A stretch of 50,824 bases of DNA from the IMG/VR virus record IMGVR_UViG_3300009506_000048, positions 1-50,824 of that record. One strand, given 5' to 3'. Within the stretch, counting starts at the first letter, position 1. Each line of letters opens with the position of its first letter. The translations under genes and the position numbers were made by a program. Under the pieces are notes generated by a model. That model was not told the origin of the DNA and ran no database searches. It was given only the letters and a program-made list of their open reading frames with translations. Source of the DNA: a virus. Below, in pieces: positions 7,502 to 50,767 of this stretch.

Positions 7502-7853
7502 CAAGACGATTATCGACTTAACGAGCGACCCTAACATCGTCGCTCTTGACTTTGAGACGGCTAAGTTTATGGCCGAACTCCTGCACAAACATTACCCGGA
7601 TCACCTCTGGGGTGTGACAGTGCAAAGCGATCAGGGAATTGCTACAGTGCGCAATCTTCGCCTATCGGGTAACTGGGGCTTCATCCTGAAGATGAAGAAC
7701 ATAGCAACGCGAAAGGAGCTTCGACGCAATACCATGATGGCAGGCGGTGAGCTTCTTGAACGGTATCGACTCAGCCGTGGAAGATTCAGAGCAGAAGAGT
7801 ACCTGGACCTCAAGGTTGACTATGCCGGTCGCATACTCGGAGACAAAGGGTAA
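7494..7853 (+). CDS. Hypothetical protein (119 aa)
   Basis: Strong Shine-Dalgarno CGGAGGAG seven bases before ATG 7494, so longer in-frame versions starting at 7437 are rejected. Alpha/beta protein (MTNKTIIDLTSDPNIVALDF...). Its stop overlaps the portal start as TAATG, so it is probably coupled to portal synthesis. No domain recognised. Confidence 0.65.
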   Translation: MTNKTIIDLTSDPNIVALDFETAKFMAELLHKHYPDHLWGVTVQSDQGIATVRNLRLSGNWGFILKMKNIATRKELRRNTMMAGGELLERYRLSRGRFRAEEYLDLKVDYAGRILGDKG

Positions 7854-9931: not shown

Positions 9932-10254
9932 TGGCGAGTAGAGAGCAAGACGAAGCCGAAATGCTGAGGAGAGTCGGCTTAGGCATGGATGCAGAAGTGT
10001 TCCTTCAGAGTGATCTCGGTCGGGCGTTAATGGAGGCGGCAATAAACGAATCCATGGATGCCATGAACGAGTTAAAGACCATCAAACGGTCCTCATTCCA
10101 AAGCCCGAGACAGTACGAAGCACGCATCGAAGAGCTTCAAAATGTCGTAGCCAGGGCAGAGGGTTTTGAGACCTGGATAGCTGGTCTGATCACAGAAGGA
10201 AGAAATAATCAAGAAATATTGTTAAACTTAGACCAGGAGCAAGATCATGACTGA
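9931..10254 (+). CDS. Helical protein between portal and scaffold (107 aa)
   Basis: Coupled to the portal stop (TAATG). Mostly helical and charged: MASREQDEAEMLRRVGLGMD, later EARIEELQNVVARAEGFETW. Small helical proteins in this slot are common in podoviruses, but their role is not established; head assembly is inferred from position. Ends inside the scaffold gene start. Confidence 0.65.
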   Translation: MASREQDEAEMLRRVGLGMDAEVFLQSDLGRALMEAAINESMDAMNELKTIKRSSFQSPRQYEARIEELQNVVARAEGFETWIAGLITEGRNNQEILLNLDQEQDHD

Positions 10255-11413: not shown

Positions 11414-11427
11414 AGGAGATCGCTGTC

Positions 11428-26700: not shown

Positions 26701-29700
26701 ACAGAAGAAGAGGCTGACAAGCTCTCCAACTATGGCTTAATGGATGCACTGGGTTATACCTTGGAGGATGATGGTGACTTCGATCTGAGTGATATCGCTA
26801 CTTACAACGAAGAGCTTGGTTATCATTACACTACACAGGACGGGTATGTCGTGCTTCGTGATGATAATGGCGACTTCAATGTTGTTGACTGGAAAGATGG
26901 CCAGCCAGCCTATGTAACTGTGCCAGAGGATGAAGTTGCTCAGTGGATGGATACCGAATCAGCCAAGGGGCAATATGAAGCATTATTCAGAGAACGTTAT
27001 GGTAACGACTGGACCATCGACGAATACTCTGGTGATGCTGCTTACTGGTCAAATACTATTAATGGCATCACGGTCAATGTTATTGAATCACCAAGAGGCG
27101 CATTTGGTGAAGCGTTCATTGATCCAGAAGGAGACCCTGAAACCACTGAAGATGAGAGTGTTGACTCTGTTATAAATGAACTGCATGACATGACAGAGAA
27201 TGCAGAAATCTCTGGTGTCCTAAAGATGTTTCCTGTTTACGATGGAGAAAATGCTGTTTATGTCGATGTCGAATATACCAAGGAAGTAAATGGTGATGAC
27301 ATCACTATAGATAACATAAGCAATGGTGAAAGTGGCGCAGGATATGACATCGGATCATTTGGCGAAGATGAAATATCAGCTGTGAAAAGAGAAATCGAGA
27401 CGCACTTTGCAAACGATAATACCGTGTTCGATTATGAACCACCTGACGCTCAATCCAAAAAAGCACCAGAATACAAACAAATTAATAAGCTGGTGAACGA
27501 GGTATTGCCAGCAGCAAAACGTATTCATGACATGTTCGCTGGTAGAGTTTCAGATGGTGGATTGACCCTCACAGACAATCCTGAACTTGAAATGCAGGTA
27601 GCCGCTCACGCTTCTGGTCTTGCTAATCCTATAATTGCAAAAAATGCAATAGACGCAATGGGCAGCAATATTATCGAAGACCAGCCATATATGTATAACA
27701 TTCCTGCGTTCTTCGAGCCCACCGCAAAAGGTTATGGTGCATATAGCGCCATGACCGGAGAACTGCTTGCAGATGTTCCTGTTGCTGATGAGAACGAGAT
27801 GGTTGCACTCACATCAATGCTACGAGACAAGTATCTACTTTCACAGGGAGAGAGTATCGGCAGTATGCCTAAAAAAAGCTCTATCGAGTCAGAGTCAAAC
27901 GCTGAAATAAATGATAGATACGAAGCACGTCTCCAGGAGATGAGGGATGCAGCTCTTGGCCTTAATGAACATGTAGAGAGCGTCATTGAGAGCTGGGCTA
28001 ACGCACTTGGAATACAGAAAAATAAACGTAAGGAATTTATCGAGAAAAAGAAAAGCGATTATACAGCCAAGTACCATAGAAAACTCGCAGCAAGTGCAGA
28101 GGAAATTCGTAAGGCTATTTCTGAGCTTGAATATGCTGTTCATGATATCGAGGTTGCCACTGGAGAAAATCTAACTCTGGATATCGATTCTCCATACTCT
28201 CCTATACACGCACTTATCCGTGATGAGGCAACTAACTATTCATGGAAAGAGGAGATGGCAAACAATAAAAAACTCAGGCCTGAAATGCTGACAAGATTTA
28301 ATGCCGCCACTCAAAAGTTACGTGGGGCATTATCAGTATTCCCGTTTACTGATAAAGAAAACGAGGAGATGACAAAATCACTCATTGGCTATGCAATGCG
28401 TAATCTACACCTTGGTGAGCCACGTCAAGATACGGCTGACTACCTGAGGTCAATAGCTGAGAAATACGATATCGCTTCTCTGGTTCCTGCATTAAATATT
28501 GAAGGTGTGACACCTGAGTTCGGTGTCAAACAAAGCATCTTTGCTGAAGCTATACCGAGTGAGAATTACGAGCCAGCAATACTCGATCTGAAACCAGAGG
28601 CACAATACAACTTCACCAGGGATGCGATGTCACTCATCTACGATGGTGGCGGCAGAAACGTTCTCATGGATAAGCTGGGTATTACCGGGTACAAAACCAT
28701 CTTCTCAGAAGGTGCCTATGCCGGTGGCGTGCATCCAAACATCGTCACTGAAATGCCGCTGCTAACCAACCTGGATCGCGATAGCGCCAACCTGTACGCT
28801 ACTGCCCTTCAGTATCTCTATCGCCAGGACAGTGTGGTGGTGCAACGACTTGTACCTGACTCTGCCGACCATGATGGATTGGCTCGTGGTTTCCGAATCC
28901 GGTTCGGCTCTGCAATAGATGAAGCCACTGAAGCTAGGCTGCTTGAGGCCTTGGCGGCAGAGGTAAGTGACGGAGCCGGATTCACACGCATCGATAATGA
29001 TGCTATAGTCTTAACTAACATCGCTCTGTACTCAGGCCTGTCAGAGGATGAGTTCGAGTCCAAGATGGTTGATTTCCTTACCAAAAACGAGGACTCGTTC
29101 GGCATCACCGAGGCAGGAACGTACTGGGCTGACCTAAACCTTGCAGATGAGGAGGCTCACCATGACTGGAGCAAAGACAGAGAAGGGACAGCGCTTGCAG
29201 ATAAAATCGCTGCCAGCGGACGATCCGATATTCTCCCGTGGCTGGACAGTAGGCGGAAGGCCTATCAATCAATTATTGAAGCGTACAAAAACGGCAGTGC
29301 AGAAAAGGGTATTTCCTTCGCGCTCTCGCAAGAGCTGAGCTGGACATGGCCAGAAAGTCCCGAGGAAGGGAGCAAGTTTGTTGTATCCAAAGGAAGGGAA
29401 CGCATTACCGGCTCATTCGTAAGCATTCAAGACACCAAAGGCAGACCGCGCCTCGCTGTTAAAATCGGTATGCAGATTGGAGATAACACTTTGACCATCG
29501 ATTCCATGGTCAGGGGGATCATCAATAATGCTATCGAGTCAGACGTTAAGTCCTTGGCATTCAGTCAGCAGTCACTAAAACGAAGCAGCGATCTAACCGG
29601 GACACTGCAGACATTATCTGCCCAGGGATTAATTAGTGACGCTTACATGACATCACCGCCAGATTCAGATGTCATGCTATATGCTTCTGATATCCTCAGC

Positions 29701-32700
29701 AGGCCTAAGTCTTCGCTGCAGGACGTGTGGATTAACGATGAAATAGCACAAGCTGTTCAGGCAACGCACGAAACCCAGGACGCATTCAAGGCTCCGTTCC
29801 ATACTGAAAAGCCACGCACAAAACCTACTCAGAAATATGCTGATAAGGTGGAGTGGTTAATGCAGTATAAGACTCACCGTACTGCAGACGAAAGTACCGG
29901 AGAGCCAATTTGGTATGATACGTTCCCGCCTAGTGAATTCCAGAAGACGGTGCTGGCTGCTGCTATGCAAGACCTAGAAAAGGCTGGCATGCCGAGTTTT
30001 AACGACTCGAAGATAACCAATATCGGTGTCTCCTACATCAACAACCTTAACATCGGCGGCTTCTATGCCACTGATGAAAATTCACTGTACCTTAACTCAG
30101 TCATAGTGGACTCACTGGCACTTAATGAATCACCGGCAACGAGACGTGTGGTTGAGCAATATCTCGCACACGAGATGTCTCACTACTATGACTACCGTGG
30201 AGAAGATACATCGTTATCAATGGAGTCTCCGCTGTTCGACATTAACTATAACAATATCTTCCCCACTGGAGAGACCACGGCTCGACTTGAGGGTGCCGGA
30301 GATATTATTACCGAGGTATATGAATTCTTTCGCGATCTTGCTGATAGTGCAGGCGCAAGAGACTACCTATCATATCCGATGGTGTACCTTGGAAAGCTGC
30401 ATGGTTACGGTCGTATTCTTGATGCTATCGATACCATCGTGGATGACACTACATACTTCTCTGTAAGGCTTCACGCAATGCAGGTGGCAGCTCAAATTAA
30501 GAAGGAGACGTTTGCGCAATTAAGCGCTATGTATTTCACGCATCCTGAACTCGTTCAACGTTATCTACCACGTAGTTACATATTTATGCAGGAGGTGTCA
30601 CATGGCATCAATCAATTCGCAGCTGGGGATGGCGAAGGCCACCTACGAGCTGTATTTCGGGCACGCGATACCAACTCCGTTCGAGATATCAGAAGACGAC
30701 GACTCGCTAATGAAGGAGTTGGTTCAGGCATTGCAGAAGAAGGAGCCGGTAAGAAGGTTCGAGTTGTACCGGCCAAAGAAAAACGCAACAGAGGAGAGTC
30801 CGAAACCTCCGATGCTATCAGACGAGTCACGCGAGAAAATAAGGGAGAATTTTCTAAGCGGGATGTCACCAAGTCCTTCGCAAAGGCGGCTGAAGAAGAA
30901 ATAAAATTTGCCGTTGCAAATAATGGTGAGATGCTGCTGCATACTGAACGTGAAGAGATGTTTGACCGTTCTGATCTCCTGGTGCAAATCGCTGAGATAG
31001 CCAAGAAGGTAGAAGGTGACAACGACATCATGCTCGAAGTCATCCGTGTTGATCTTGGCGAGGACACTCCATTGTCTCCGCATGAGCGTGATGCTATCCG
31101 TGCATTCCTTAGCGAGTATCGTGCAGGTATGTCCACTTACAGTGGCACTACCAGTATCTTCGGTGATAAATCATTCACTGATGATAAGCAGGCATTCATG
31201 TTCGAGAGCATGGAGCACGCACTTAAAAATCGCATGAGCAAAGCGTCAGGTGTCAATGAAGATGAAATATGGAAGATGAGCCGTGACGATTATGTTGGCG
31301 ATACCACAGGGGAAGAGTTAAAGCTGCGTGAAGACCGTCACTATCATCTCGTATCTAAGAAGAATAACGAGTACATCAAGCTACGCATTGATCAGGCGGC
31401 TCATAAGGCAAAGGTATTGAATATCCTGGATGCCTATGCGAACAAAACAGGACACCTCATCCCTTACGATCTGTTCGACAGACTGTATACCAATGAAACG
31501 CTATACAACAGCGCTCCAAAGTGGATGAAGGAGGTTGTCGATGAGGCACGCGAAGAACATAGCCTCATGATAAATAGCTCGAATGATGCTGGCGCTATTG
31601 AGAACTTCTTCACACGCGCAGAACACTACCGCACCTACCGCAACCTGAAAGATGAAGCGAACAGGAAAATCGTGCGTGGCGTTACTCCATATAGCGGATT
31701 CCGTACCATTAAGCAGATTGAGGATATTGTCGATGAATCATTCGACTCATTCCTGGTGCCGTCCATCATCCCTAAGATCAAACTGCCTCGATTCAGCATG
31801 AATAATGATGAGGGTGGCATTCCTAATAACGGAGACGCAACCCAGGTGCCGGATGAACATATCGCACGTCGAGCTATAGATGGGTATCGTGCAGCTGCCC
31901 AGTCAGTAGTTGACTGGATCGACAACGGACTTAACCCATTATCTGGATTACCTCAACTGGATAACTTCCTGCGTGGTCGTAGACAGGCTGTTGGTCGCAT
32001 TGCCAAGGTCAATGAATTAACCCGGCGCATTTACAATATCTTCGAGCAGGCCACCGAGGAGGAGGCAAAATCTATTTATGAATACCTGACCAATGCAGAG
32101 GGCGCTCTGGCTGACCCAGGACGACTACCTAACCGTAACGTCCTGGTGCATCGAGAACGTGGTACTGGTCGCTTCTTCAGGAAGAAAGAAGAGGTCGATC
32201 TACGTCAAGAGACCATTGCTGTTAAGCGTCTCATCAATCATGTCGGTCGTAGCCTCGTTGAGCATGGAGTCATACCAGCAATGAGCTTCAAGCACTTCGA
32301 GAACAAGTACCTACCGAGGCTATATCTGGCTCACCTCCTTGGTGAGGGCGGATATCGCAAAATTGTCGGCGGTAAGAAGCTGTCCACCCTGGACTACTCG
32401 AAGAAGAGAAACCTGGGTCTCGATGATGTGACACGCATGGTCCTGGGTGAGATTAAAGACCCGGCTTATGTGGCTGCCAAGACAGTCGGTGTACCCATGC
32501 GCGACATCGCGATCCTGGACTTCCTGCAGAAGATATCTGAGAACGGTGAATGGTCCGTCCCTGGGGTAATCGTCAACTATGGCGGCAAGAAGGTTACTGC
32601 CTACTGGTTGATCGAGGAAGGAGAGTCCATGCTGGAGCGTGCTCAGTACATGAAGGGGGACGATGCCACCTATACCCGCAGTATCGCTACCGACATGATC

Positions 32701-34251
32701 GGGACAGGTCGCCAGAAGCTCTCTGAGGCCTTTGGAGAGGACTTTGAGCCCAAGCTATGGAGACAGGTGCCTAATACCCCTCGATATGGAGCCCTGCGCG
32801 GTCTGTGGGTGCGTAAGGAGATTTACAACGATATGCTATCCACTATGGGTGGCAACCCTGCAGAAAGCACCATGGAGCGTCTGCTGGGCCAGGGTGGTAT
32901 CGCCACCAAGGTTACCCAGTGGTGGAAAATGATGAAGGTGCCTCTCAACCCACCGTCACAAGTCCGCAACTTCGTCTCCAACGGCGTGCTTATGAACCTC
33001 TCTGGCGTCCCCATGAGGCGTATACCGGGATTAATCAAGCATGCCCTGCATGACATAAGGACCAACGGCAAATACTGGCGTATAGCTAAGAGTGAGGGCG
33101 TCACAGAGTCCACCTTCACTGCCAACGAGCTGATCCGCATCGACAACGAGCTGCTGAACCTCAAGAAAAGGATGGGGGTTTCCAGGGATGCAATGGACTA
33201 CCTGCAGCATGTGGGATCGATCATCTCTAACTTCGCCTCAGACAGCTATCAGTTTTCCGAGGGTCTGTTCAAGACTGCCATGATTATCGATGCCATGGAG
33301 AACCAGGGCAAAGGTGCCGGAGAGGCTGCTGAGCTGGCCAGTAAGTGGCTGTTCGATTACTCCCTGGTAGGGCCGAACATCAAGTACCTGCGTAATGCAC
33401 CTATCGGTGTACCGTTCATCACCTTTTACGCCAAGGCACTTCCACGCATGGTAGAGGCTCTGCTGTTGCATCCACACAGGTTTGCGCCATACATCGCTGT
33501 ACCCTGGTTGATGGCTGAGGCCATAGCAAAGCACATGGATGTCGGCGGTGATGATCTCGATAAACTGAAAAAGGCACTCCCGGTATGGCTCCAGGAACGA
33601 GGCCACACCATGATTATGCCTTACAAGGACGCAGCCGGTCGCTGGCAGATATTTGACTATGGCTACTTCATGCCATGGGGTATGTACTGGGATGTACTGA
33701 AAGATATTGGTGAAGGCCAACCAGGAGAGGTAATCAAAACCCTGGGGCTGTTCGGTGGTCCCGTGCCTGAGTTAATTACTGCCATCAAGGGTGGTACTGA
33801 CTCATTCACTGGTCGCCCAATCTATCGTCCAGAAGACCCACCTAAGCGGCAGTTTGAAGACATCCTCCTGTACCTTACCAGGATGGCACTACCCACCTGG
33901 ATAACTGACAGGGGTGCTGTGGCGCACATGTACCGTGCTTTAACTGGTCACGTTGACCCTCGCACAGGGGAGCCGACAACAACGGCTACACAGGCATCTC
34001 TACGCTTCGTGGGTATGAACGTCTACCCGGTTGATCCACAGTACACCAGGGCTCGTAACTTGATGTTCATGCAGATCGAGATTAAGGACATCATCACCAG
34101 GATGCGCTCTAAGCTGCGCGACCGTAACCTCAACGACAAACAGCGTGCCGACATCCGGGCTGAATATCAGGAATACCTGAAGCGCAAGATCGATAAGATG
34201 CGTGAGTACGCGAAAGAATCAGAGGTACACGAGAACTTGAGAGTAAAATAA
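23704..34251 (+). CDS. Giant polyvalent virion protein (3515 aa): GGDEF-like, InPase-like, HExxH and LPD38-like domains
   Basis: One unbroken frame of 10.5 kb. Residues 1-300: helical with Gly/Ala-rich hydrophobic stretches (about 109-130, 165-180), possibly membrane-active. About 548-690: GGDEF-type nucleotidyl cyclase fold (LTSRLTGLRN; metal motif IDAD 585-588; INDNLGHKKGD; HGDEF 627-631, first Gly replaced by His). About 770-905: inorganic-pyrophosphatase-like domain of polyvalent proteins (GNYKKGH 780; DGDQIDAFIGP 825-835). About 925-1245: very acidic. About 1636-1880: unrecognised globular domain. HEMSH 2156-2160: zinc metallopeptidase motif. About 3075-3330: LPD38-like region (NPPSQVRNFVSNG, GVPFITFYAKALPRMVEALL). 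By analogy with Bcep22-type giant proteins it is probably packaged and injected to act early in infection (inferred). Four small genes lie inside it in the +1 frame. Confidence 0.85.
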   Translation: MPTGPISQLRELQKKQDEPSFLKETGKGVASGLVNLASSVGTGIEYLGGKLDDQDLLDLGETVASYWNDVNQEHFQAHESLRGPIYTPEKGLNTDLLSKAAWWGYNVGNIVPSVAASMIPGAAVAKGAKALQIGQKVVRWTPSVVAKMGRLGRALADADKINRGLGAAAGGLVGGALEGSSTYQEVLQRGGSRDEAEAAAEQMTLASGFLNALSVGQMMKKLPKGVIGNLERRTIDGLVEGITEWLEEPSEAYIKMRLADKKGSELKFTPEQAMQQIYNGLNVIPPSIISGMLFGGGEPASVGQVTETRAVPEPTGPLTTAAQGLNRAIPLNEEGAMRRAEALSAQGMQHAVVPHPEVPNKFTVMPVQEVQNASEVRGNEGQVQEGMPAVGEGGEVLRPIRQDQGSENIQLPEETRAGAGNEKFGLTPAEEGDIKIREMDTIKRNAINERAGKLVTDEVGADRKLKEMDSIKASALKERLDKMPSEEKAASLQAFATYLRAPKNGGEHINSKRVDMEISEARRRHLALRESIDNMTPEDRATAISALREMALTSRLTGLRNNDAFVEEQGEDFDAEGSDKFIASIDADGLKAINDNLGHKKGDALLRAIGYAINAELSGDAKGYHLHGDEFTITGNNRDEIEQITQRAAERLKEATITGMTPDGEEIELKGIGFSYGISDTLQEAENELARNKAEREKTGERSPRGELPARVLRKGRPEATNTGQSTKEKSERLTSNRPQFVMEEPTGPSAEDITKEAHRAATSPRSRVRKPTEAQLKAGNYKKGHVTLQQLPLTIENAAGTKRKPDWPNLQNHYGYIKGTLGKDGDQIDAFIGPNPQSTKAFVIDQKTKDGKFDEHKVMLGFNSLKQAKQGYLKSYEEGEGRIKAITPTSVKKVKQWIDAGDTRKEFAKGKKEFMFSTEYIREMNEAEARRNALNVASGDENTAMDVYDNQIDEHNFSSDWDVDDAEYALDTEQLNQAIDDTLGREELKKEYMEKEDVTEEEADKLSNYGLMDALGYTLEDDGDFDLSDIATYNEELGYHYTTQDGYVVLRDDNGDFNVVDWKDGQPAYVTVPEDEVAQWMDTESAKGQYEALFRERYGNDWTIDEYSGDAAYWSNTINGITVNVIESPRGAFGEAFIDPEGDPETTEDESVDSVINELHDMTENAEISGVLKMFPVYDGENAVYVDVEYTKEVNGDDITIDNISNGESGAGYDIGSFGEDEISAVKREIETHFANDNTVFDYEPPDAQSKKAPEYKQINKLVNEVLPAAKRIHDMFAGRVSDGGLTLTDNPELEMQVAAHASGLANPIIAKNAIDAMGSNIIEDQPYMYNIPAFFEPTAKGYGAYSAMTGELLADVPVADENEMVALTSMLRDKYLLSQGESIGSMPKKSSIESESNAEINDRYEARLQEMRDAALGLNEHVESVIESWANALGIQKNKRKEFIEKKKSDYTAKYHRKLAASAEEIRKAISELEYAVHDIEVATGENLTLDIDSPYSPIHALIRDEATNYSWKEEMANNKKLRPEMLTRFNAATQKLRGALSVFPFTDKENEEMTKSLIGYAMRNLHLGEPRQDTADYLRSIAEKYDIASLVPALNIEGVTPEFGVKQSIFAEAIPSENYEPAILDLKPEAQYNFTRDAMSLIYDGGGRNVLMDKLGITGYKTIFSEGAYAGGVHPNIVTEMPLLTNLDRDSANLYATALQYLYRQDSVVVQRLVPDSADHDGLARGFRIRFGSAIDEATEARLLEALAAEVSDGAGFTRIDNDAIVLTNIALYSGLSEDEFESKMVDFLTKNEDSFGITEAGTYWADLNLADEEAHHDWSKDREGTALADKIAASGRSDILPWLDSRRKAYQSIIEAYKNGSAEKGISFALSQELSWTWPESPEEGSKFVVSKGRERITGSFVSIQDTKGRPRLAVKIGMQIGDNTLTIDSMVRGIINNAIESDVKSLAFSQQSLKRSSDLTGTLQTLSAQGLISDAYMTSPPDSDVMLYASDILSRPKSSLQDVWINDEIAQAVQATHETQDAFKAPFHTEKPRTKPTQKYADKVEWLMQYKTHRTADESTGEPIWYDTFPPSEFQKTVLAAAMQDLEKAGMPSFNDSKITNIGVSYINNLNIGGFYATDENSLYLNSVIVDSLALNESPATRRVVEQYLAHEMSHYYDYRGEDTSLSMESPLFDINYNNIFPTGETTARLEGAGDIITEVYEFFRDLADSAGARDYLSYPMVYLGKLHGYGRILDAIDTIVDDTTYFSVRLHAMQVAAQIKKETFAQLSAMYFTHPELVQRYLPRSYIFMQEVSHGINQFAAGDGEGHLRAVFRARDTNSVRDIRRRRLANEGVGSGIAEEGAGKKVRVVPAKEKRNRGESETSDAIRRVTRENKGEFSKRDVTKSFAKAAEEEIKFAVANNGEMLLHTEREEMFDRSDLLVQIAEIAKKVEGDNDIMLEVIRVDLGEDTPLSPHERDAIRAFLSEYRAGMSTYSGTTSIFGDKSFTDDKQAFMFESMEHALKNRMSKASGVNEDEIWKMSRDDYVGDTTGEELKLREDRHYHLVSKKNNEYIKLRIDQAAHKAKVLNILDAYANKTGHLIPYDLFDRLYTNETLYNSAPKWMKEVVDEAREEHSLMINSSNDAGAIENFFTRAEHYRTYRNLKDEANRKIVRGVTPYSGFRTIKQIEDIVDESFDSFLVPSIIPKIKLPRFSMNNDEGGIPNNGDATQVPDEHIARRAIDGYRAAAQSVVDWIDNGLNPLSGLPQLDNFLRGRRQAVGRIAKVNELTRRIYNIFEQATEEEAKSIYEYLTNAEGALADPGRLPNRNVLVHRERGTGRFFRKKEEVDLRQETIAVKRLINHVGRSLVEHGVIPAMSFKHFENKYLPRLYLAHLLGEGGYRKIVGGKKLSTLDYSKKRNLGLDDVTRMVLGEIKDPAYVAAKTVGVPMRDIAILDFLQKISENGEWSVPGVIVNYGGKKVTAYWLIEEGESMLERAQYMKGDDATYTRSIATDMIGTGRQKLSEAFGEDFEPKLWRQVPNTPRYGALRGLWVRKEIYNDMLSTMGGNPAESTMERLLGQGGIATKVTQWWKMMKVPLNPPSQVRNFVSNGVLMNLSGVPMRRIPGLIKHALHDIRTNGKYWRIAKSEGVTESTFTANELIRIDNELLNLKKRMGVSRDAMDYLQHVGSIISNFASDSYQFSEGLFKTAMIIDAMENQGKGAGEAAELASKWLFDYSLVGPNIKYLRNAPIGVPFITFYAKALPRMVEALLLHPHRFAPYIAVPWLMAEAIAKHMDVGGDDLDKLKKALPVWLQERGHTMIMPYKDAAGRWQIFDYGYFMPWGMYWDVLKDIGEGQPGEVIKTLGLFGGPVPELITAIKGGTDSFTGRPIYRPEDPPKRQFEDILLYLTRMALPTWITDRGAVAHMYRALTGHVDPRTGEPTTTATQASLRFVGMNVYPVDPQYTRARNLMFMQIEIKDIITRMRSKLRDRNLNDKQRADIRAEYQEYLKRKIDKMREYAKESEVHENLRVK
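24818..24982 (+). CDS. Nested small gene 1 in the +1 frame of the giant gene (54 aa)
   Basis: AGGAGG at 24806-24811, six-base spacer, ATG 24818, stop TGA 24980-24982. Reads MPAKYEAMRDKFKKECLQSG and later AKTKAAKIYNSQRKPGQ. This looks like an independent small phage protein: a helix pair with the AAKIYN-x-x-RKPG ending I associate with short conserved phage proteins, though I cannot name the family. In the giant protein the same bases encode residues 372-427, a low-complexity Gly/Glu/Gln stretch between domains. Confidence 0.7.
   Translation: MPAKYEAMRDKFKKECLQSGKGEKYCDRFAKTKAAKIYNSQRKPGQEPVTRNSG
25763..25906 (+). CDS. Nested small gene 2 in the +1 frame of the giant gene (47 aa)
   Basis: AGGAGG at 25751-25756, six-base spacer, ATG 25763. 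Reads MNSQETKQKGKKPGKGRLVV then NSLQEFLEKADPKQPIQVSL, a basic leader followed by a helix-turn-strand. The overlapping giant-frame residues (687-735) form the linker between the GGDEF-like and pyrophosphatase-like domains. A longer in-frame version from 25718 has no ribosome site. Confidence 0.6.
   Translation: MNSQETKQKGKKPGKGRLVVNSLQEFLEKADPKQPIQVSLPKRSQKD
29162..29338 (+). CDS. Nested small gene 3 in the +1 frame of the giant gene (58 aa)
   Basis: AGGAGG at 29150-29155, six-base spacer, ATG 29162. Reads MTGAKTEKGQRLQIKSLPAD then RGWTVGGRPINQLLKRTKTA; basic. Corresponds to giant-protein residues 1820-1879, at the end of an unrecognised globular domain. The basic composition could partly be a by-product of reading Glu/Lys-rich codons one base shifted, so confidence rests on the start signal. 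Confidence 0.5.
   Translation: MTGAKTEKGQRLQIKSLPADDPIFSRGWTVGGRPINQLLKRTKTAVQKRVFPSRSRKS
30602..30904 (+). CDS. Nested small gene 4 in the +1 frame of the giant gene (100 aa)
   Basis: AGGAGG at 30590-30595, six-base spacer, ATG 30602, stop TAA 30902-30904. Reads MASINSQLGMAKATYELYFG and AIPTPFEISEDDDSLMKELV, with a balanced residue mix, a probable helical start and a basic C-terminus (SPSQRRLKKK). It is the longest and most protein-like of the nested set. The giant frame here (residues 2300-2401) is Arg/Glu/Gly-rich and linker-like, just after the metallopeptidase region. Confidence 0.68.
   Translation: MASINSQLGMAKATYELYFGHAIPTPFEISEDDDSLMKELVQALQKKEPVRRFELYRPKKNATEESPKPPMLSDESREKIRENFLSGMSPSPSQRRLKKK
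31541..31570 (+). other. Nine-codon micro-ORF with strong ribosome site inside the giant gene
   Basis: AAGGAGG, a six-base spacer and ATG 31541 in the same +1 phase as the four nested genes, but the frame closes after nine codons. The stop overlaps, as ATGA, an in-frame Met of the giant protein (ATG 31567, residue 2622). Could be a decayed nested gene or a reinitiation device for an internal product; may also be chance. Confidence 0.3.
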
Positions 34252-37190: not shown

Positions 37191-37361
37191 TTATTTTGGG
37201 CCGCATTCTTCACGGTGCTGATGAAGACCAAGCATGGCCTTTTGCCACTCTATAAAGTCTTCCCAGCTGTTAAACCCTGCATCCTTGGCTTTACCATCTT
37301 CCTGATACTGCACGAGGATATGGCCATTGCCAAGAGCACGTACATTCATGTTTGTGATCAT
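37191..37361 (-). CDS. Small hypothetical protein (56 aa)
   Basis: AGAGGAAAGAC precedes the ATG at 37361, which overlaps the previous stop (TAATG). Reads MITNMNVRALGNGHILVQYQ then EDGKAKDAGFNSWEDFIEWQ. Ends three bases before the exonuclease start. A short strand pair followed by a helix; function unknown. Confidence 0.65.
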   Translation of the reverse strand: MITNMNVRALGNGHILVQYQEDGKAKDAGFNSWEDFIEWQKAMLGLHQHREECGPK

Positions 37362-39967: not shown

Positions 39968-40014
39968 TTTTCTGTCCTTTAAATGGAGGTTATGGGCATC
40001 CATGCCCGGTGGGG

Positions 40015-41088
40015 TTATGCGGCTTCTGCGATTTGGCTCCATGCCGACTTGTTAAGGTTGAGGATACGACCACCCATTTCTTCTAGTTCGATGGCTCGGT
40101 CGTATGACTCGTGGTTGTTGGCAAGTGCCGTTACCGCATTCACCATTCCCCACTTGCTGTAATCACCATCACGGATGAGGTTTTCAATTAACTTGTTACG
40201 CTCCTCCTCGCGGATAGTGAATGCCTTGCCAAGCTCCTCTACTGCCTTGATCGGATTTGCTGCTGCACTGGTTTCGGCTGACGCCTTCATCTGTTCCATT
40301 AATTGCATAAACAATTCCGGGTTAGACAGGGCAAGAATACTGTCGCGAATCTTCAGCATTAAAGCATGGTCATCAGCACGTAGCGTCTCTTCAGAATAGA
40401 CGCTGTAATCTTCACCAGCCTCAACACGACGACCCAGGTGGTTCTTGCGTAGGCGACCTTCATCGAGAGTTGATCCGGTAACCATGCCGTTAGTACATAC
40501 CAATCGATAAATCATTGGTCGTACTTCAAGTGCGCCAGAACCAATTTCAGAGTTAGTAATAATCAGACCACCTTGCACGGGGTCTCCCACTTTTACCTCG
40601 CCTTCCATTTTCGGGAAACGTGCCTGCAGATATAACTTGCGATCAGTAACATCTGTGGACACTACTTCAACTTCAGCACCGGATTCAATTAATGCTTCTC
40701 CGGCAGCCTGGAAAATCTGATCATTATCGATACGACGATAGCGGTCAGAAAGAAATGCGCGAGCATTACCATCCAGTGTACGAACCATTCTGCGTGCTGC
40801 TTTGTTTTCATCGTGTAGCCAATGATGAATGTTGTTGATTAACAGGTGCGGAGATTCTGCACGCATGCGATCATAATAGCGTTTAGGAATCTCAGTGAAC
40901 GCTGCGATTTGTCCGTGAGCATGACTGGTAATGCCGTGGGCCGGTTGTTGCGGAATAACCAGCTCGAATTCTTGATCGGCATGATGACTTACCTGCAGCT
41001 CGCGGGTATCGACCAGAAAGTCCTGCTTTGCTTCGGACTGACGCTCAAGTTCCGCTGCGAGTTGGGAAAGAGTTTTGCCTTTAATCAT
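40015..41088 (-). CDS. DUF932-family phage/plasmid protein
   Basis: 357 residues, first gene of the leftward operon, with GAGGG upstream of ATG 41088. The motifs NARAFLSDRYRRIDNDQIFQ, GGLIITNSEIGSGALEVRPM and IYRLVCTNGMV are hallmarks of DUF932 (plasmid and phage proteins often beside recombination genes). Biochemical role is not known; a place in replication or recombination is inferred from neighbours. A palindrome GGGCATGGATGCCC lies just after its stop. Confidence 0.82.
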   Translation of the reverse strand: MIKGKTLSQLAAELERQSEAKQDFLVDTRELQVSHHADQEFELVIPQQPAHGITSHAHGQIAAFTEIPKRYYDRMRAESPHLLINNIHHWLHDENKAARRMVRTLDGNARAFLSDRYRRIDNDQIFQAAGEALIESGAEVEVVSTDVTDRKLYLQARFPKMEGEVKVGDPVQGGLIITNSEIGSGALEVRPMIYRLVCTNGMVTGSTLDEGRLRKNHLGRRVEAGEDYSVYSEETLRADDHALMLKIRDSILALSNPELFMQLMEQMKASAETSAAANPIKAVEELGKAFTIREEERNKLIENLIRDGDYSKWGMVNAVTALANNHESYDRAIELEEMGGRILNLNKSAWSQIAEAA

Positions 41089-41110
41089 GATACTGCCCTC
41101 TTGGTTGAAG

Positions 41111-41126
41111 CCCGTTCCTCAACGGG
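41111..41126 (-). promoter_or_regulatory. 5'-leader hairpin of the leftward mRNA
   Basis: CCCGTT-CCTC-AACGGG forms a perfect six-base-pair stem with a tetraloop. Given the promoter at 41135-41163 it would lie at the very 5' end of the leftward transcript, where such stems protect mRNA from decay. Confidence 0.55.
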
Positions 41127-41134
41127 ATGGTGAT

Positions 41135-41163
41135 AGCTTAGACCACCCTGAAACCGGATGCAA
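41135..41163 (-). promoter_or_regulatory. Promoter of the leftward recombination operon
   Basis: On the minus strand: TTGCAT (41163-41158), 17-base spacer, TAAGCT (41140-41135). The -35 runs into ATCCGGTT, the motif shared with other promoters here. Predicted transcription start near 41128, about 40 bases before the DUF932 gene. Confidence 0.6.
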
Positions 41164-41212
41164 GTATTTTTCATGCTATTTTTTAACTCCTTATAAATCA
41201 GTAACTTATATA

Positions 41213-41252
41213 CAAAAAAAAGCCCCGATTGACGTTGCATTCAATCAGGGCT
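41213..41252 (-). terminator. Intrinsic terminator for leftward transcription in the control region
   Basis: AGCCC-x-GATTGA (41221-41232) pairs with TCAATC-x-GGGCT (41241-41252). On the minus strand the stem is followed by eight T (41221-41213). Since the nearest leftward gene starts further left, at 41088, this stop can only end a transcript made inside 41253-41780, which has no convincing gene. Confidence 0.8.
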
Positions 41253-41640
41253 ATTCTTGGCTTTACGTTAGCCGGTGCTTCCAACACCGTGCCGATGAGA
41301 GTAGAGCAGGTACTTCATCAGTGGCTAATCAGCCTTGCAAAGTATTTTACCTTACCTCATCAGCATTGCAACTCCGGCTTTGTCGGCTCCTGGTCTGTCG
41401 GTCCGCAGTGTGTCACCACTGGGCCAGTGTGTCGTGATAGTCCCCTACAGGCAACCCGAGGGGGAGAGCGCGAAGTATGGTCGTTGACCATGATGGCTGG
41501 CTCGGGAGGACGAAGCACAGGATCGAGGCTTCGGTAAGCAGCTATCCATGACGAGGTTATGCCCGTGTTTGGGCAGGGGCTCGTCTGGAACTTTTCTTCC
41601 CGACCAAGGGAAGATTGCTATCACTAAAACCATAGTTATC
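41221..41640 (-). ncRNA. Candidate large structured non-coding RNA
   Basis: About 420 bases without a credible gene. Stems visible: 41595-41614 (TCTTCCC/GGGAAGA), 41550-41585 (GACGAG/CTCGTC enclosing TGCCC/GGGCA), 41478-41490 (TGGTC/GACCA), 41417-41429 (CACTG/CAGTG), 41273-41289 (CGGTG/CACCG), then the leftward terminator. The direct repeat TTGCAA occurs at 41335 and about 41367. The terminator fixes the strand as leftward. I cannot assign a known class such as GOLLD or ROOL. The exact 5' end and promoter are uncertain. Confidence 0.55.
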
Positions 41641-41670
41641 TTTTAGTACGGAGTTCTTATCACCTATACC

Positions 41671-41687
41671 TAGAACATAATGTTCTA
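41671..41687. promoter_or_regulatory. Perfect palindrome, candidate operator
   Basis: TAGAACAT-A-ATGTTCTA, eight-base arms with a one-base centre, lies in the AT-rich part between the structured RNA region and the rightward promoter. On the minus strand it could sit in the spacer of a TTATTT/GTATAG promoter driving the RNA. Likely a dimeric repressor site; the protein is unknown. Confidence 0.5.
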
Positions 41688-41722
41688 AATAAATAAGCTG
41701 GCCATCGAAATCCTGGTCGGGC

Positions 41723-41751
41723 TGGCACTATGCGAAACCGGATGCTATGAT
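41723..41751 (+). promoter_or_regulatory. Promoter of the rightward early operon
   Basis: TGGCAC (41723-41728), 17-base spacer, TATGAT (41746-41751) preceded by TGC, an extended -10. The spacer contains AACCGGAT, the reverse complement of the motif in other promoters. Start predicted near 41758, about 25 bases before the first gene. Confidence 0.6.
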
Positions 41752-41782
41752 GTAGTAAAATATAACCCAGTAGGTGATCGTC

Positions 41783-41989
41783 ATGGGGTCAACTCCACAT
41801 ACCAGCGCAAGGAAAGGAAAGCGAGTCATAGTTACTCTCAAGAATGGCAAAAAGATTTTGGACAAATTTGTTGAGAGAACTGGCAAGGGAATAGTTTTGG
41901 AAAAGAATGGATTTATTCGAGGCAGGGATTTACGAGCTATGACCATATACCGTGGTCAAGACATGTCACAATTTGATGATGAAGAATAA
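41783..41989 (+). CDS. Small basic SH3-like hypothetical protein (68 aa)
   Basis: First rightward early gene; AGGTGAT precedes ATG 41783. Sequence (RKGKRVIVTLKNGKKILDKF, ERTGKGIVLEKNGFI) is a five-strand, Lys-rich barrel pattern like small nucleic-acid-binding folds. As the first early product it may take over host functions, but no target is evident. Confidence 0.65.
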   Translation: MGSTPHTSARKGKRVIVTLKNGKKILDKFVERTGKGIVLEKNGFIRGRDLRAMTIYRGQDMSQFDDEE

Positions 41990-41992
41990 CTT

Positions 41993-42325
41993 ATGTGTAC
42001 CTGTATATCAGAAACCGACGAGCATGGAAGATGCCTGGATTGTGGAGAGCAGAGCAAGATGACCAAAGAGGACTGGGACGCATACGAGAAATACCAGCGT
42101 GCCGTTTTGTTGAATGGCAACTACGTTCAACCAGAGGTTATTGATCCAACCAAGCACCGCTATGTCGGAATGTTTAGACCGCCCGTCAATCCAGTAATCA
42201 ATCCGACAACTGATATCCTGTGTCGGTGTGGAGAAATACTGAGGTATCGTGGGGAGGAGGTAGAGCACTACCGCAAGGGATGCTATGACGTGCCTCAGTA
42301 TGTTGATATTGAAGGCTCCGAGTAA
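41993..42325 (+). CDS. Zinc-finger-like hypothetical protein (110 aa)
   Basis: N-terminal cluster MCTCISETDEHGRCLDCGEQ gives C-x-C and C-x2-C, a treble-clef or ribbon pattern, and the C-terminal DILCRCGEILRYRGEEVEHY adds another C-x-C. Stop and start of the helicase overlap (TAATG). Likely partner or regulator of the helicase next door; inferred. Confidence 0.6.
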   Translation: MCTCISETDEHGRCLDCGEQSKMTKEDWDAYEKYQRAVLLNGNYVQPEVIDPTKHRYVGMFRPPVNPVINPTTDILCRCGEILRYRGEEVEHYRKGCYDVPQYVDIEGSE

Positions 42326-44187
42326 TGCAGTGTAGCTGTGGTGGCTCTACTGCAAATAAGCCAGTTATTAGATACGGTGAAATAGCTGGTGAGTACGAGC
42401 AATGCACGGCTTGTGGCAGGATTGCGTGGAGACACATCAGCGAAGAATTAAAACTCGAATTATTCGGGGAAAAAAATATGGCAGTTATCCAAAGTAGAAC
42501 ACTCTATGGTGGATTCACCCCGGTATGTAGTAGCTGCGGTGTTTGTGAGAGCTGGGACATTAGCTCTCAGGAATACCGTTCGATGGAAAAATACTGGGAT
42601 GATTGGGAGTGCGATGAATGCAACCCAATGGCAAAAGGTAAGAGGTTCATTACCCAAGCTGTAGAGAGAATTTTAAGGGGATACCAGCAGAGGGGTCTTG
42701 ATGAGCTGAGGCAGGCAGTCAGGGACGGCTTCAGGCGCATATTACTCGTACTTCCAACTGGTGGCGGTAAGTCAGTCATCTTCTCCAAACTAATCCAGTC
42801 AGCAAATCAAAAAGGTAACCCTGTACTCTTCCTGGTACATAAGCGAGAGCTTGTTTATCAGGCATCGGATCACATGGATAAAGAGGGGGTACAGCATGGC
42901 ATTATTATGGCCGGTGAACCGATGAATAAAATGAAACAGGTTCAGCTTGCCAGCACACTCACGCTATGGACTAGGGCAAAACGACATGAGCGTATCGATA
43001 TGCCTCCGGCTAAAGTTGTTGTGGTTGACGAGGCTCATCGTACCGGGTCAAAAACATACAACCAGATACTTGATGATTATGATGACTCGATACTCATTGG
43101 TGTAACAGCAACCCCAGTAAGAAAAAATGGCAGAGGGCTTGGTAATCAATTCGAGAAAATGATTGTCATCTCATCTATTTCTGAGCTTCAAGAGCTTGGT
43201 TTCTTATGTCAAGTTGAATACATGGTTCCAAATATTCCAGACCTTTCTGAAGTTGATATCAATGATGGTGAGTTTGTCGAAGAACAACTGCAGGAAGTTA
43301 TGGATAACAAACACCTTGTAGGAAATATTGTTGATCATTACATCAAGTTTGCTAAAGGTAGACAGGCGGTATTGTTTGCTGCGGGTGTTAGGCACTCGAT
43401 TCATTTGCGCGACAGATTCAGAATGAAGGGTATTGCCGCAGAGCATATTGACGCTAACACCAATACGGCTGAAAGGGATGAAATCCATGACAGATTCGAG
43501 AAGGGTGAGATACAGGTAATATGTAATTACGCGATCTACACAGAGGGTGTAGACATGCCAGAGCTTAGCTGTGTTATTAATGCCAGACCATCAAGGTCAA
43601 TCGTATTCCATTTGCAAAGTATAGGTAGGGGGTTGAGACCAAAGAAAGATGGTGGTAACTGCCTCGTCATTGACCACTCTGGAAATGTTCTTCGTATGGG
43701 TCCGGTGGAGATGGATCACGAGTGGTCGCTGGATGAGTTCGAGGTTATTTACGACAGGGATGCCAGTAATGAAGAAAGAAAGGAAAGAGAGAAAAAAGAA
43801 ACAGAGTACATCTGCAGTAATTGTGGAACCATGTTTGAGTCTGAACCAAGGTGTCCTACCTGCGGTGAACCTCTGGCTAAGATTGGTAGGGACATCAAGG
43901 TGGCTAAGGGTGAATTAACTCTTTATAAGCCGAAACTAAAAAAGAAGGACAAGGAACCAAGCAAAGAGGAGAAGCAGCTGTGGTACTCCATGTTTTTACA
44001 TTATGCCAAATCGAAAAGTTACCAGGATGGGTGGGTCTCACATAAATACAAGGAAAAGTTTGGCGTATGGCCGAGGGATATGAAGAGGTCACCAATACCG
44101 CCTTCAGTGGAGTTCAATAATTACATGAAGTACCTGCGTATTAAGTACATTAAACAGCAGGAGAAAAAGAGACATGAACAACCATGA
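42325..44187 (+). CDS. SF2 DEAH-type helicase with fused N- and C-terminal zinc ribbons
   Basis: 620 residues. Residues 1-115 contain cysteine pairs (CSCGG, CTACG, CSSCG, CDEC) in two modules; a second module starts at an internal ATG (42478). Helicase core: Q-like GYQQRGLDELRQAV, Walker A LPTGGGKS, motif Ia VHKRELV, DEAH in VVVDEAH, motif III VTATP, motif V TEGVDMP, and motif VI QSIGRGLRPKKDGG. Another ribbon (CSNCGTMF...CPTCGEP) follows. Close to SSL2-like helicases of phages. It would unwind DNA at phage origins or forks, with the primase encoded next. Confidence 0.92.
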   Translation: MQCSCGGSTANKPVIRYGEIAGEYEQCTACGRIAWRHISEELKLELFGEKNMAVIQSRTLYGGFTPVCSSCGVCESWDISSQEYRSMEKYWDDWECDECNPMAKGKRFITQAVERILRGYQQRGLDELRQAVRDGFRRILLVLPTGGGKSVIFSKLIQSANQKGNPVLFLVHKRELVYQASDHMDKEGVQHGIIMAGEPMNKMKQVQLASTLTLWTRAKRHERIDMPPAKVVVVDEAHRTGSKTYNQILDDYDDSILIGVTATPVRKNGRGLGNQFEKMIVISSISELQELGFLCQVEYMVPNIPDLSEVDINDGEFVEEQLQEVMDNKHLVGNIVDHYIKFAKGRQAVLFAAGVRHSIHLRDRFRMKGIAAEHIDANTNTAERDEIHDRFEKGEIQVICNYAIYTEGVDMPELSCVINARPSRSIVFHLQSIGRGLRPKKDGGNCLVIDHSGNVLRMGPVEMDHEWSLDEFEVIYDRDASNEERKEREKKETEYICSNCGTMFESEPRCPTCGEPLAKIGRDIKVAKGELTLYKPKLKKKDKEPSKEEKQLWYSMFLHYAKSKSYQDGWVSHKYKEKFGVWPRDMKRSPIPPSVEFNNYMKYLRIKYIKQQEKKRHEQP

Positions 44188-45540: not shown

Positions 45541-45761
45541 TGACGCAGGCAAAAATCCCAGAACCAAAGAATATCGAATTCGATGTGGAGTCAAGGGACT
45601 TTGGTCATGCTACAGCATTCAGTGTATGCGTAAAGGTAAACAACTACTCCTGGTCAAAGGGATTACTGGAGCCAGGATTAAAGAAAACCACCGAGTCTAT
45701 AAACCAGGAAAGATATAGTGAATTATGCAGACTATTCTGGAGACACATAGGGGCAATGTAG
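45540..45761 (+). CDS. Small hypothetical protein (73 aa), second of a paralogous pair
   Basis: GAGGAG seven bases before ATG 45540. MTQAKIPEPKNIEFDVESRD, then ATAFSVCVKVNNYSWSKGLL and a C-terminal helix ending FWRHIGAM. Related to the preceding gene as noted there. Last gene before a promoter. Confidence 0.6.
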   Translation: MTQAKIPEPKNIEFDVESRDFGHATAFSVCVKVNNYSWSKGLLEPGLKKTTESINQERYSELCRLFWRHIGAM

Positions 45762-45768
45762 AATCCGG

Positions 45769-45797
45769 TTGCATTTGAATCAGGGTTCAACTACACT
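45769..45797 (+). promoter_or_regulatory. Promoter with ATCCGGTT motif
   Basis: TTGCAT (45769-45774), 17-base spacer, TACACT (45792-45797). ATCCGGTT (45763-45770) overlaps the -35. It sits in the only real gap of this stretch and leads directly into the gene at 45816. Confidence 0.65.
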
Positions 45798-46155: not shown

Positions 46156-46350
46156 ATGGTATCTGAAGTGAAACAATCCAATGCTCTTGAGAAAGCTAAA
46201 GCAGAGCTTCAAGAAGAGCGCGAAAAGAAAATGGTTGCAAGATACAAAGAGTTGTTGCGCCAGCGTGAAAGTGCCCAGATTGTCGTCAACAATCTCGACC
46301 GAGAGATTGCTGAACTGGAGCACGAATTCAAAGAAGGCGTTGGCCTTTAA
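46156..46350 (+). CDS. Coiled-coil protein (64 aa)
   Basis: GAGGTGAAGTGAA before ATG 46156. Almost entirely a heptad-patterned helix (EKAKAELQEEREKKMVARYK, VVNNLDREIAELEHEFKEG). Probably an oligomerising small regulator or adaptor; function unknown. Confidence 0.65.
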   Translation: MVSEVKQSNALEKAKAELQEEREKKMVARYKELLRQRESAQIVVNNLDREIAELEHEFKEGVGL

Positions 46351-46359
46351 TTAGTAGCC

Positions 46360-46899
46360 ATGGACTTTACCAAGGCTATCCTGCACCCCGGCGTCAAGGT
46401 ATTTGCCGGGGTGTGGACATCAGACGTGTACTCACTATCACGAGCAGGATGGAAGTTCGATGTGAGTCTCGCAGTAGATTATGGTAGAACGATTCAAGTA
46501 ATGTTGCGTAACCCGTTATCAGGGATGGTGGGTGGATTTGTGGTAAACAGGTCACATTTTGAAATGGCCAGGGGAGCAGAGGTTCTGTATTTTAGAGAAG
46601 ACATCCTCATAGAGAAGGAACACGCATTCTTCAGAACGATGCGTATTGCACCAGTAGACCTTCTCCAGGCAGATGTGGGTGTAGCTATCAATACGCAGGA
46701 AACGGAATTCAGAGAATACACACCGGAAGAAGAGCGTGGTCCGCAGGAAATAATTGTTACTCCAGAAAAGGTTCCAGAGCTACTAGAAAGGATAAGGGCA
46801 GCACAGGAGCCCAGGGCTCGTGAACTCCTGAGAAAGCAGGAGCACCGAGACAGAATGTCTGTATTATTCCCAGCAGCTAAGATACTGACAATAAAATAA
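46360..46899 (+). CDS. Hypothetical protein (179 aa)
   Basis: Mixed alpha/beta N-terminal domain (HPGVKVFAGVWTSDVYSLSR, YGRTIQVMLRNPLSGMVGGF), then a long charged C-terminal helix (KVPELLERIRAAQEPRAREL). Ribosome site weak. Stop and NinB start overlap (TAATG), tying it to the recombination genes. No family recognised. Confidence 0.6.
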   Translation: MDFTKAILHPGVKVFAGVWTSDVYSLSRAGWKFDVSLAVDYGRTIQVMLRNPLSGMVGGFVVNRSHFEMARGAEVLYFREDILIEKEHAFFRTMRIAPVDLLQADVGVAINTQETEFREYTPEEERGPQEIIVTPEKVPELLERIRAAQEPRARELLRKQEHRDRMSVLFPAAKILTIK

Positions 46900-47348
46900 T
46901 GAAGACCTTCATCCTAAACGGAAGAAACAATGATGTCATACGGGAGTACATGAAACTTATCCCGTTTGACGGCACCTATAAAATGGAAATTAAAAAGGTG
47001 CAATCAAAACGCAGTTTAGCTCAGAATGATCTCTATTGGATGTGGTTGACTATTATTGCTAATGACATCGGTTACACCAAAGATGAGATGCACGATGTTA
47101 TGAGGGACATGCTTCTTGAGCCGGTGGTTAAGGAGGTGATGGGGAGAGTGATCTCTACCTTACCGTCCACAACTGATATGGGTGTAAAGGATTTCTGCGA
47201 TTATCTCAATGCAATAGATATATGGGCTGCTGGTTTTGGTATCATCCTCCCGCAACCAGAAGAGCTTTATTACTTAGCTCTTGGGTATCACAAAAGGAAG
47301 AAAGATGGCCCTGAAACGAAAGCCATATCGCAACAACAAGATACTTAA
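46899..47348 (+). CDS. ninB: NinB/Orf-family recombination protein
   Basis: 149 residues. KKVQSKRSLAQNDLYWMWLT with KDEMHDVMRDMLLEP is the NinB signature. The lambda homologue (Orf) binds ssDNA and helps recombination mediators load in place of host RecFOR. Works logically with the ERF, exonuclease and SSB of the minus-strand operon although it lies in the rightward one, as in lambda nin regions. Followed by a YbcO-like gene, another nin-type neighbour. Confidence 0.85.
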   Translation: MKTFILNGRNNDVIREYMKLIPFDGTYKMEIKKVQSKRSLAQNDLYWMWLTIIANDIGYTKDEMHDVMRDMLLEPVVKEVMGRVISTLPSTTDMGVKDFCDYLNAIDIWAAGFGIILPQPEELYYLALGYHKRKKDGPETKAISQQQDT

Positions 47349-49806: not shown

Positions 49807-50286
49807 ATGATTATCGAACACAGTACCGCGCACATCATTATCGACAACATCGAGCGCCGACAAAAAAAGACCATCGTCATGACCAATGGTTGCTTCGATA
49901 TCATTCACGCTGGCCACGTACACCTCCTGAGAGAGGCCAAGAAGCTCGGGGACGTTCTGGTGGTGGCAATCAATAGTGACGCCTCGGTGACGCGCCTGAA
50001 GGGAAGCTCTCGCCCCGTGGTCAGGCTCATAGACAGGTTGGCTGTGCTGGATGCGATAGAGTTTGTAGACTACGTTGTGACGTTTGTAGGAGACGACCCT
50101 AACGCTGTTATCTGCGAGATCATGCCTGACATCCTGGTGAAAGGAGAGGACTACGCAGATAAGGTCATCTCAGGTTCAGAATGCGTGATGGATAACGGGG
50201 GGCGAATTGAGATCATTAAGTTCCTTGAAGGGCGCTCAACCACCGGCATCATTAATACCGCAATTAATTTGAAAAAAAGTTCATGA
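49807..50286 (+). CDS. Heptose-1-phosphate adenylyltransferase-like protein (HldE C-terminal type)
   Basis: 159 residues, the size of the stand-alone adenylyltransferase domain of HldE. MTNGCFDIIHAGHVHLLREA contains the HxGH nucleotide site (HAGH); INSDASVTRLKGSSRPV, DAIEFVDYVV and PDILVKGEDY match the RfaE domain II pattern, and GRSTTGIIN supplies the ATP phosphate loop. Makes ADP-heptose from heptose-1-phosphate and ATP, an LPS precursor. A glycerol-3-phosphate cytidylyltransferase-like role is less likely. Probable donor supply for the GT9 enzyme at 13776. Confidence 0.85.
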   Translation: MIIEHSTAHIIIDNIERRQKKTIVMTNGCFDIIHAGHVHLLREAKKLGDVLVVAINSDASVTRLKGSSRPVVRLIDRLAVLDAIEFVDYVVTFVGDDPNAVICEIMPDILVKGEDYADKVISGSECVMDNGGRIEIIKFLEGRSTTGIINTAINLKKSS

Positions 50287-50292
50287 ATCCGG

Positions 50293-50321
50293 TTGCATTG
50301 TATCCGGCTGCATGCTAACTT
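50293..50321 (+). promoter_or_regulatory. Promoter with double ATCCGG motif
   Basis: TTGCAT (50293-50298), 17 bases, TAACTT (50316-50321) with TGC before it. ATCCGGTTGCAT and ATCCGGCTGCAT occur in tandem, one at the -35 and one in the spacer. It may drive the zinc-ribbon gene, the tRNA and the whole late operon. Confidence 0.65.
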
Positions 50322-50681: not shown

Positions 50682-50767
50682 GTTGGTGTAGACAAATTGG
50701 TAAAGTCACCGGGCTTTCAACCCGGAGCCGAATGGCCTTGCGGGTTCGAGCCCCGTCACCAACTCCA
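50682..50767 (+). tRNA. tRNA with UUC anticodon and long variable arm (class II body), CCA encoded
   Basis: Acceptor GTTGGTG/CACCAAC (50682-50688, 50757-50763), three-base-pair D stem GAC/GTC with loop AAATTGGTAAA, anticodon stem CCGGG/CCCGG with loop CTTTCAA, anticodon TTC at 50716-50718. The 14-base variable arm contains stem GCC/GGC; T arm GCGGG-TTCGAGC-CCCGT; discriminator T at 50764; CCA 50765-50767. All cloverleaf elements fit. The anticodon predicts glutamate, but the D loop and variable arm are those of leucine- or serine-type tRNAs. Confidence 0.85.

Follow-up and report, generated by a model that had tools for sequence, protein, structure and literature searches.

The early region of the tailed phage considered here raises the question of what is encoded in the gene-free stretch that separates its two diverging early operons. 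The window, i.e. the whole stretch of DNA that was analysed, is a 50,824-base record in which the genes for terminase, portal and major head protein reside at 3801-12366. As close relatives of the major head protein (70-74% identical) occur in the genomes of Zoogloea, Pseudothauera and Aromatoleum, the host is probably a rhodocyclalean betaproteobacterium. On one side of the stretch, a recombination operon encoding DUF932, Erf, YqaJ and SSB proteins runs leftward from 41088, with the DUF932 gene as its first member (40015-41088, minus strand). On the other side, a replication operon runs rightward from 41774, encoding a 71-aa and a 110-aa protein, an SF2 DNA helicase (42325-44187, plus strand), a primase and NinB. 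A preliminary description of this DNA had placed a candidate large structured RNA, read leftward and ending in its own terminator, between these operons at 41221-41640.

The region is indeed rich in hairpins, as had been described. The minus strand of 41213-41660 (448 nt) folds at -166.7 kcal/mol, compared with -131.8 +/- 6.05 kcal/mol for shuffled sequences (z -5.8), while the plus strand reaches z -4.0. When the terminator is left out, the minus strand of the region still has a z of -4.8, which is lower than every tile in the minus-strand background of 88 sampled 400-nt tiles (mean z -0.8, sd 1.2, lowest -3.9); on the plus strand, one intragenic tile in another part of the window has a z of -5.05. 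The signal is unevenly distributed, with 120-nt windows being significant solely around 41191-41310 and 41491-41640 and the middle part (41311-41480) being ordinary. The predicted leftward intrinsic terminator was found at 41213-41252 (minus strand), consisting of a stem at 41221-41252 (12 bp, loop of 8 nt) and a U8 tail at 41213-41220. It is the sole terminator-like site in 40000-43000, and no minus-strand ORF is situated just upstream of it, also as described. At the other end, the 5' domain features a hairpin with inner and outer stems, GACGAG/CUCGUC and UGCCC/GGGCA (41547-41587, minus strand), which contains the nested double stem noted earlier at 41550-41585, and a second hairpin, UCUUCCC/GGGAAGA (41594-41613, minus strand). 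Based on these features, we propose a structured noncoding RNA gene of approximately 440 nt at 41213-41656 on the minus strand, with a putative 5' end. The location given in the preliminary description thus stands, but its size does not, as the element is longer, running leftward from a likely start close to 41656 down to the terminator tail at 41213. Of this, approximately 41229-41428 is conserved in a second phage.

This second phage, hereafter L111, is a 48.5 kb IMG/VR contig that was found via alignment of the helicase (60% identity, versus 40% for the runner-up). Its genome is colinear with that of the window throughout, most proteins are 45-68% identical, and both the DUF932 gene and the helicase gene are syntenic. 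Between these two genes, L111 carries a region of the same size and in the same orientation that ends in a leftward terminator (5004-5480, minus strand). The terminator resides at the same place as in the window, with its stem rebuilt from different sequence. The L111 element folds at -196 kcal/mol on the minus strand (z -4.6) and at -160 kcal/mol on the plus strand (z -3.3). At the DNA level, blastn of the window against L111 recovers a core with 72% identity over 108 nt, and a softer-scoring blastn extends the alignable part to 41229-41428 (minus strand; 65% over 204 nt, E 2e-10 among the loci compared). Additionally, a covariance model built from the window sequence alone (R1, representing the conserved 3' domain at 41262-41379, minus strand) was searched against 735 kb, and its sole match besides the window itself was L111 5065-5189 (minus strand; 38.1 bits, E 1.3e-5). 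Segment identity between the two phages is approximately one third in the 5' half, where the sequences of both hairpins are not kept, and up to approximately two thirds in the 3' half. Abutting the 5' end of the RNA in L111 is a small ORF (5495-5683, plus strand) whose product resembles ribosome modulation factor, with a match to Pfam RMF at E 3e-4 that stays below the curated cut-off.

The same comparison bears on whether the region could encode a protein. Mechanical ORF calling yields a 102-aa ORF (TTG start, plus strand), which has no Pfam match, and a 62-aa ORF (ATG start, minus strand). However, the alignment of the element between the window and L111 contains indels of 1 and 2 nt, which are not multiples of three, and there is therefore no reading frame common to the two phages. 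The protein-coding reading was accordingly rejected, and the earlier statement that the region has no credible ORF holds; a search for an ORF with protein-level conservation gave none.

In both phages, the 3' domain forms a predicted long hairpin composed of a basal helix (P1), a long helix (P3) and a small apical hairpin, GGCU/AGCC, all on the minus strand. P1 pairs AGCCGG (41374-41379) with CCGGCU (41270-41275); both strands are identical in L111, where the helix has 8 bp. P3 pairs GCUGAUGAG (41356-41364) with CUCAUCGGC (41291-41299). The apical hairpin at 41323-41334 has the form GGCU-NNNU-AGCC, being GGCUGAUUAGCC in the window and GGCUUGUUAGCC in L111. Further, two blocks are invariant, UUAGCCACUGAUG at 41316-41328 (13/13 identical in L111) and CACCGGCUAAC at 41267-41277 (11/11), and they stand where most DNA of the two genomes barely aligns. 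The paired parts of P1 and of the apical hairpin show no variation between the phages, and P1, because it is invariant, offers no covariation test.

P3 does vary, and the covariation check that had been proposed could be made there. Between the window and L111, five of its pairs have changed on both sides, and 94% of the cells are paired, with two unpaired. When the partner strand was slid by 1-3 columns the pairing was lost, and the slid controls had at most one compensatory pair, while 63 of 500 letter shuffles reached the score of the real alignment (n = 2 sequences). We thus consider the covariation of P3 suggestive and not statistically decisive, since just two sequences are available, and the verdict rests on the combined evidence. 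In this regard, the one-sided changes are also informative: U-A to U-G, A-U to G-U and, in the terminator, C-G to U-G keep their pairs on the minus-strand reading only, and would therefore be tolerated only if the RNA is the minus strand.

The invariant blocks are also partly complementary to each other, and in place of P1, GGCUAA of CACCGGCUAAC could form a helix with UUAGCC at 41323-41328. The resulting alternative fold (UUAGCC/GGCUAA together with CUGAUG/CAUCGG) is preferred by RNAalifold for the sequence pair, and in each sequence taken singly it falls short of the main fold by 8-14 kcal/mol and leaves the terminator stem uninvolved. The UUAGCC/GGCUAA pairing may reflect binding of a second molecule, or may have no meaning. 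As a separate observation, one invariant block sits within GAAGCACCGGCUAAC (41267-41281, minus strand), a 14-mer occurring once in the window. This we take to equal the universally conserved 530-loop flank of 16S rRNA, with which L111 has CACCGGCUAACUC in common, and the likeness is probably due to chance.

Position, strand, terminator, helix and loops are thus conserved between the two phages without a coding pattern. The proposal of a large structured RNA, leftward and with its own terminator, is supported by its place and orientation in L111, the compensatory changes, the rebuilt terminator and the non-coding indels, all of which are features of the compared sequences. The element is probably a real, lineage-restricted structured RNA of two phages, representing a new family. 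That the element functions as an RNA in one way or another is likely, since the sister phage keeps its place with compensating base changes.

The arrangement of the surrounding promoters bears on whether this RNA is a gene of its own. A palindromic, operator-like 12-mer with the consensus GAAWCCGGWTTC is located in or beside the early promoters of both phages. In the window it is found at 41150-41161, 41734-41745, 45761-45772 and 50285-50296, at leftward, rightward and further rightward promoters, and in L111 at 4783, 5729 and 10075 (32602, 33548 and 37894 of the sister contig). Six sites with at most one mismatch were found versus 0.2 expected, and a phage repressor probably binds the 12-mer. 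The promoter of the leftward operon, TTGCAT-N17-TAAGCT (41135-41163, minus strand), carries the operator GAAACCGGATGC in its spacer (41150-41161); its L111 counterpart is TTGCAT-N17-TAATCT, with the same operator. Likewise, the rightward operon has a promoter with an extended -10 element (41722-41751, plus strand) and the operator GAAACCGGATGC in its spacer (41734-41745).

The structured RNA has no GAAWCCGGWTTC operator site, and the lack of the operator shared by the flanking early promoters argues for a free-standing gene. In addition, the leftward operon has its own promoter beyond the RNA terminator, i.e. downstream of it, in both phages. The terminator therefore need not serve the operon, and the RNA is most simply seen as transcribed on its own, although it may additionally be part of a long leader read from a further upstream promoter. 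What counts against a free-standing gene is that the best candidate for an RNA promoter is weak in both phages and that a plus-strand ORF directly adjoins the RNA 5' end in L111. In the window this is TTTAGA-N15-TATAGG (41663-41689, minus strand), which matches 8/12 positions and has a short spacer, and which would place the RNA start near 41656. Within the same segment, a perfect 8-bp inverted repeat, TAGAACAT-A-ATGTTCTA (41671-41687), is a candidate operator of the RNA promoter; it is the sole perfect copy in the window and is absent from L387, being confined to the window phage. Altogether, we give the reading of the region as a free-standing, trans-acting RNA gene an even chance.

Extensive searches were made for further members of the family. 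Rfam searches of the window and L111, whether at the gathering cut-off or with E relaxed to 10, returned chance matches only, in agreement with the earlier failure to match the region to GOLLD or ROOL. There was no blastn match of the region among phage and plasmid records, DNA comparison with 40 viral records gave generic terminator letters only, and a further 22 viral records contained no third member. In IMG/VR scans by protein and by pattern, L111 was the sole real relative; five other loci (L192, L193, L383, L384 and L385) had the pattern by chance with no structural match and were rejected. Covariance models found nothing beyond L111 across approximately 2 Mb of related loci, and no member in approximately 1,000 bacterial genomes (12 + 300 + 369 + 299, with some overlap). 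One weak hit in one genome among the 299 (L389; 25.7 bits, E 0.02) has neither of the invariant blocks and was rejected. Apart from L111, phages with a DUF932 gene lack a comparable structured region ending in a terminator upstream of that gene, and a DUF932 search of genome contigs yielded no relative. As the large genome scans used stricter filters and records very near the window are possibly absent from the collections searched, the family may be larger.

Several other explanations have to be weighed against a free-standing RNA gene. The leftward recombination operon could have an additional transcript that begins further upstream and has the RNA as its 5' leader, with the fold of the RNA deciding between a stop at 41213 and readthrough into DUF932 and beyond, as in the HK022 put RNA or in attenuators of the riboswitch type. 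On the strand of the DUF932 gene, 125 bases separate the terminator from the start of that gene, in L111 the terminator is likewise upstream of this operon, and the conserved sequence allows two mutually exclusive pairings, namely P1 with the apical hairpin or the alternative fold described above. We nevertheless regard a cis-acting leader or attenuator as unlikely, given that the operon's own promoter and the shared operator are downstream of the terminator in both phages, that the alternative pairing is the weaker one and does not reach the terminator stem, and that the RNA would be very long for such a role. The HK022 put RNA and other antitermination leaders resemble the element in being structured leftward RNAs that end at a terminator near an early operon; they differ in that the element does not lie between a recognised operon promoter and its genes, and the HK022 put RNA is much shorter. 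A phage replication origin, where the RNA or the hairpins would prime or load replication, would fit the placement between recombination and replication operons and a 16-nt direct repeat, TTGCAA.GCTGAT.AG, of which the window has two copies. This appears quite improbable, as the repeat is not kept in L111, the conserved features, namely G-U changes and a one-strand terminator, are those of an RNA, and no AT-rich element or origin-protein site was identified in the region.

An antisense or immunity RNA, pairing with phage or host mRNA leaders as the P4 CI RNA or P1 c4 do, is suggested by the location, since the related temperate phages PS-1 and YA3 carry CI and Cro between their divergent early promoters and those ORFs of the window that were scanned include no recognisable repressor or integrase. 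The element shares with the P4 CI, P1 c4 and N15 small processed RNAs that it is a noncoding RNA in an early control region, but those are short antisense RNAs, and the element greatly exceeds c4-type RNAs in size and in degree of folding. A search for antisense targets in both phage genomes gave no conserved or orthologous match, the longest being 13-15 nt in unrelated places, so that conserved complementarity is lacking and the probability of this reading is slim indeed. That there is no functional RNA at all, and that the region is a relic or encodes a protein, its structure being due to chance and its one terminator an ordinary one, would agree with there being two known members, a middle part that is not unusually structured and a poorly conserved 5' half. 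We hold this to be very improbable, because structure, sequence blocks, terminator and position are kept although the proteins are approximately 60% identical, and the 1-2-nt indels exclude a common reading frame. The roles suggested in the preliminary description (replication start, packaging or the early switch) were drawn from position, and nothing singles one of them out.

For the free-standing RNA, we tentatively outline how it might work. Transcription would start near 41656 on the minus strand and stop at the terminator at 41213, giving an RNA of approximately 440 nt that would fold into a fast-evolving, multi-hairpin 5' domain, serving as a scaffold, and a conserved 3' domain. The latter would be a long hairpin closed by P1, with the covarying P3 and with UUAGCCACUGAUG and CACCGGCUAAC presented as invariant loops. 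The RNA would act in trans, with the invariant 3' loops making the contact to its partner, be this a protein, a different RNA or a further copy of the same RNA; the sequences searched yielded neither an interacting partner nor a complementary target. Residing outside the operator-controlled early operons, it can be made at a different time. It is conceivable, if still doubtful, that the two phages hold the first members of a new family of structured phage RNAs under control separate from the early operons, similar to GOLLD and ROOL at half the size, and that the invariant loops bind a partner or another copy of the RNA.

Among the known large phage RNAs, GOLLD, which is encoded by phages and prophages and has a conserved 3' region and a less conserved 5' region (PMC12286853), is similar in layout only: both are phage-encoded large structured RNAs with a conserved 3' and a variable 5' part. 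GOLLD, which forms a homo-oligomeric cage, is usually longer than 800 nt, whereas the element spans approximately 440-480 nt from the terminator to the next gene or promoter, has no Rfam model match at E up to 10 and no shared sequence found, and is not beside tRNA genes, the sole tRNA of the window being at 50682. ROOL, of which one example has 659 nt and which is typically found near tRNA islands (PMC12286853), is likewise phage-encoded, structured and free-standing, the last being a prediction for the element. It differs in that the element has no Rfam match and has one tRNA 9 kb away in the window and none in the sister phage. Since it is half the size of GOLLD, has no tRNAs nearby and matches no model, we assigned the element to neither. 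In phage ICP1, an approximately 800-nt ncRNA from an ORF-less space by the lysis cluster has been shown by RNA-seq (PMC7567579). Both cases involve a gene-free intergenic space in a phage of a Gram-negative host and a large noncoding transcript, which is predicted here, but the element lies between early operons; when the region was compared with the phage collection by blastn, nothing matched.

Large phage RNAs of the GOLLD and ROOL type are abundant and have no known function. A compact RNA with the GOLLD layout, placed in an early control region with well-defined flanking promoters, would be a small system with a direct readout for deletion and complementation. Further, lineage-specific structured RNAs can be found from one distant sister genome, even though ordinary blastn against public phage records sees nothing.

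Some other features of the window were also recorded. Within the helicase ORF, a very strong hairpin is located at 42519-42590 (plus strand; z -6.6 for 42481-42600), in a Cys-rich N-terminal extension of approximately 100 aa that is unaligned to helicase homologues. At 46300-46440 (plus strand; z about -4 to -5.8), a 13-bp perfect hairpin, CUGCACCCCGGCG/CGCCGGGGUGUGG, is found at the start of the gene at 46360 and possibly acts in translational or transcriptional control. The tRNA at 50682-50767 (plus strand; 86 nt, encoded CCA) has the anticodon TTC, read as Glu, and a variable arm of the class II type (GCCGAATGGC), which is odd for tRNA-Glu; it is absent from the sister phage. A single 3515-aa ORF (23704-34251, plus strand) includes a GGDEF-type-like stretch (LTGLRNNDAF ... 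HGDEFTI) and probably encodes a giant virion-associated protein. Finally, 37252-37352, part of a 56-aa ORF (37191-37361), has 77% DNA identity over 102 bases to 47241-47341 of the sister contig, non-syntenic and in opposite orientation, and is a gene that has moved relative to the sister phage.
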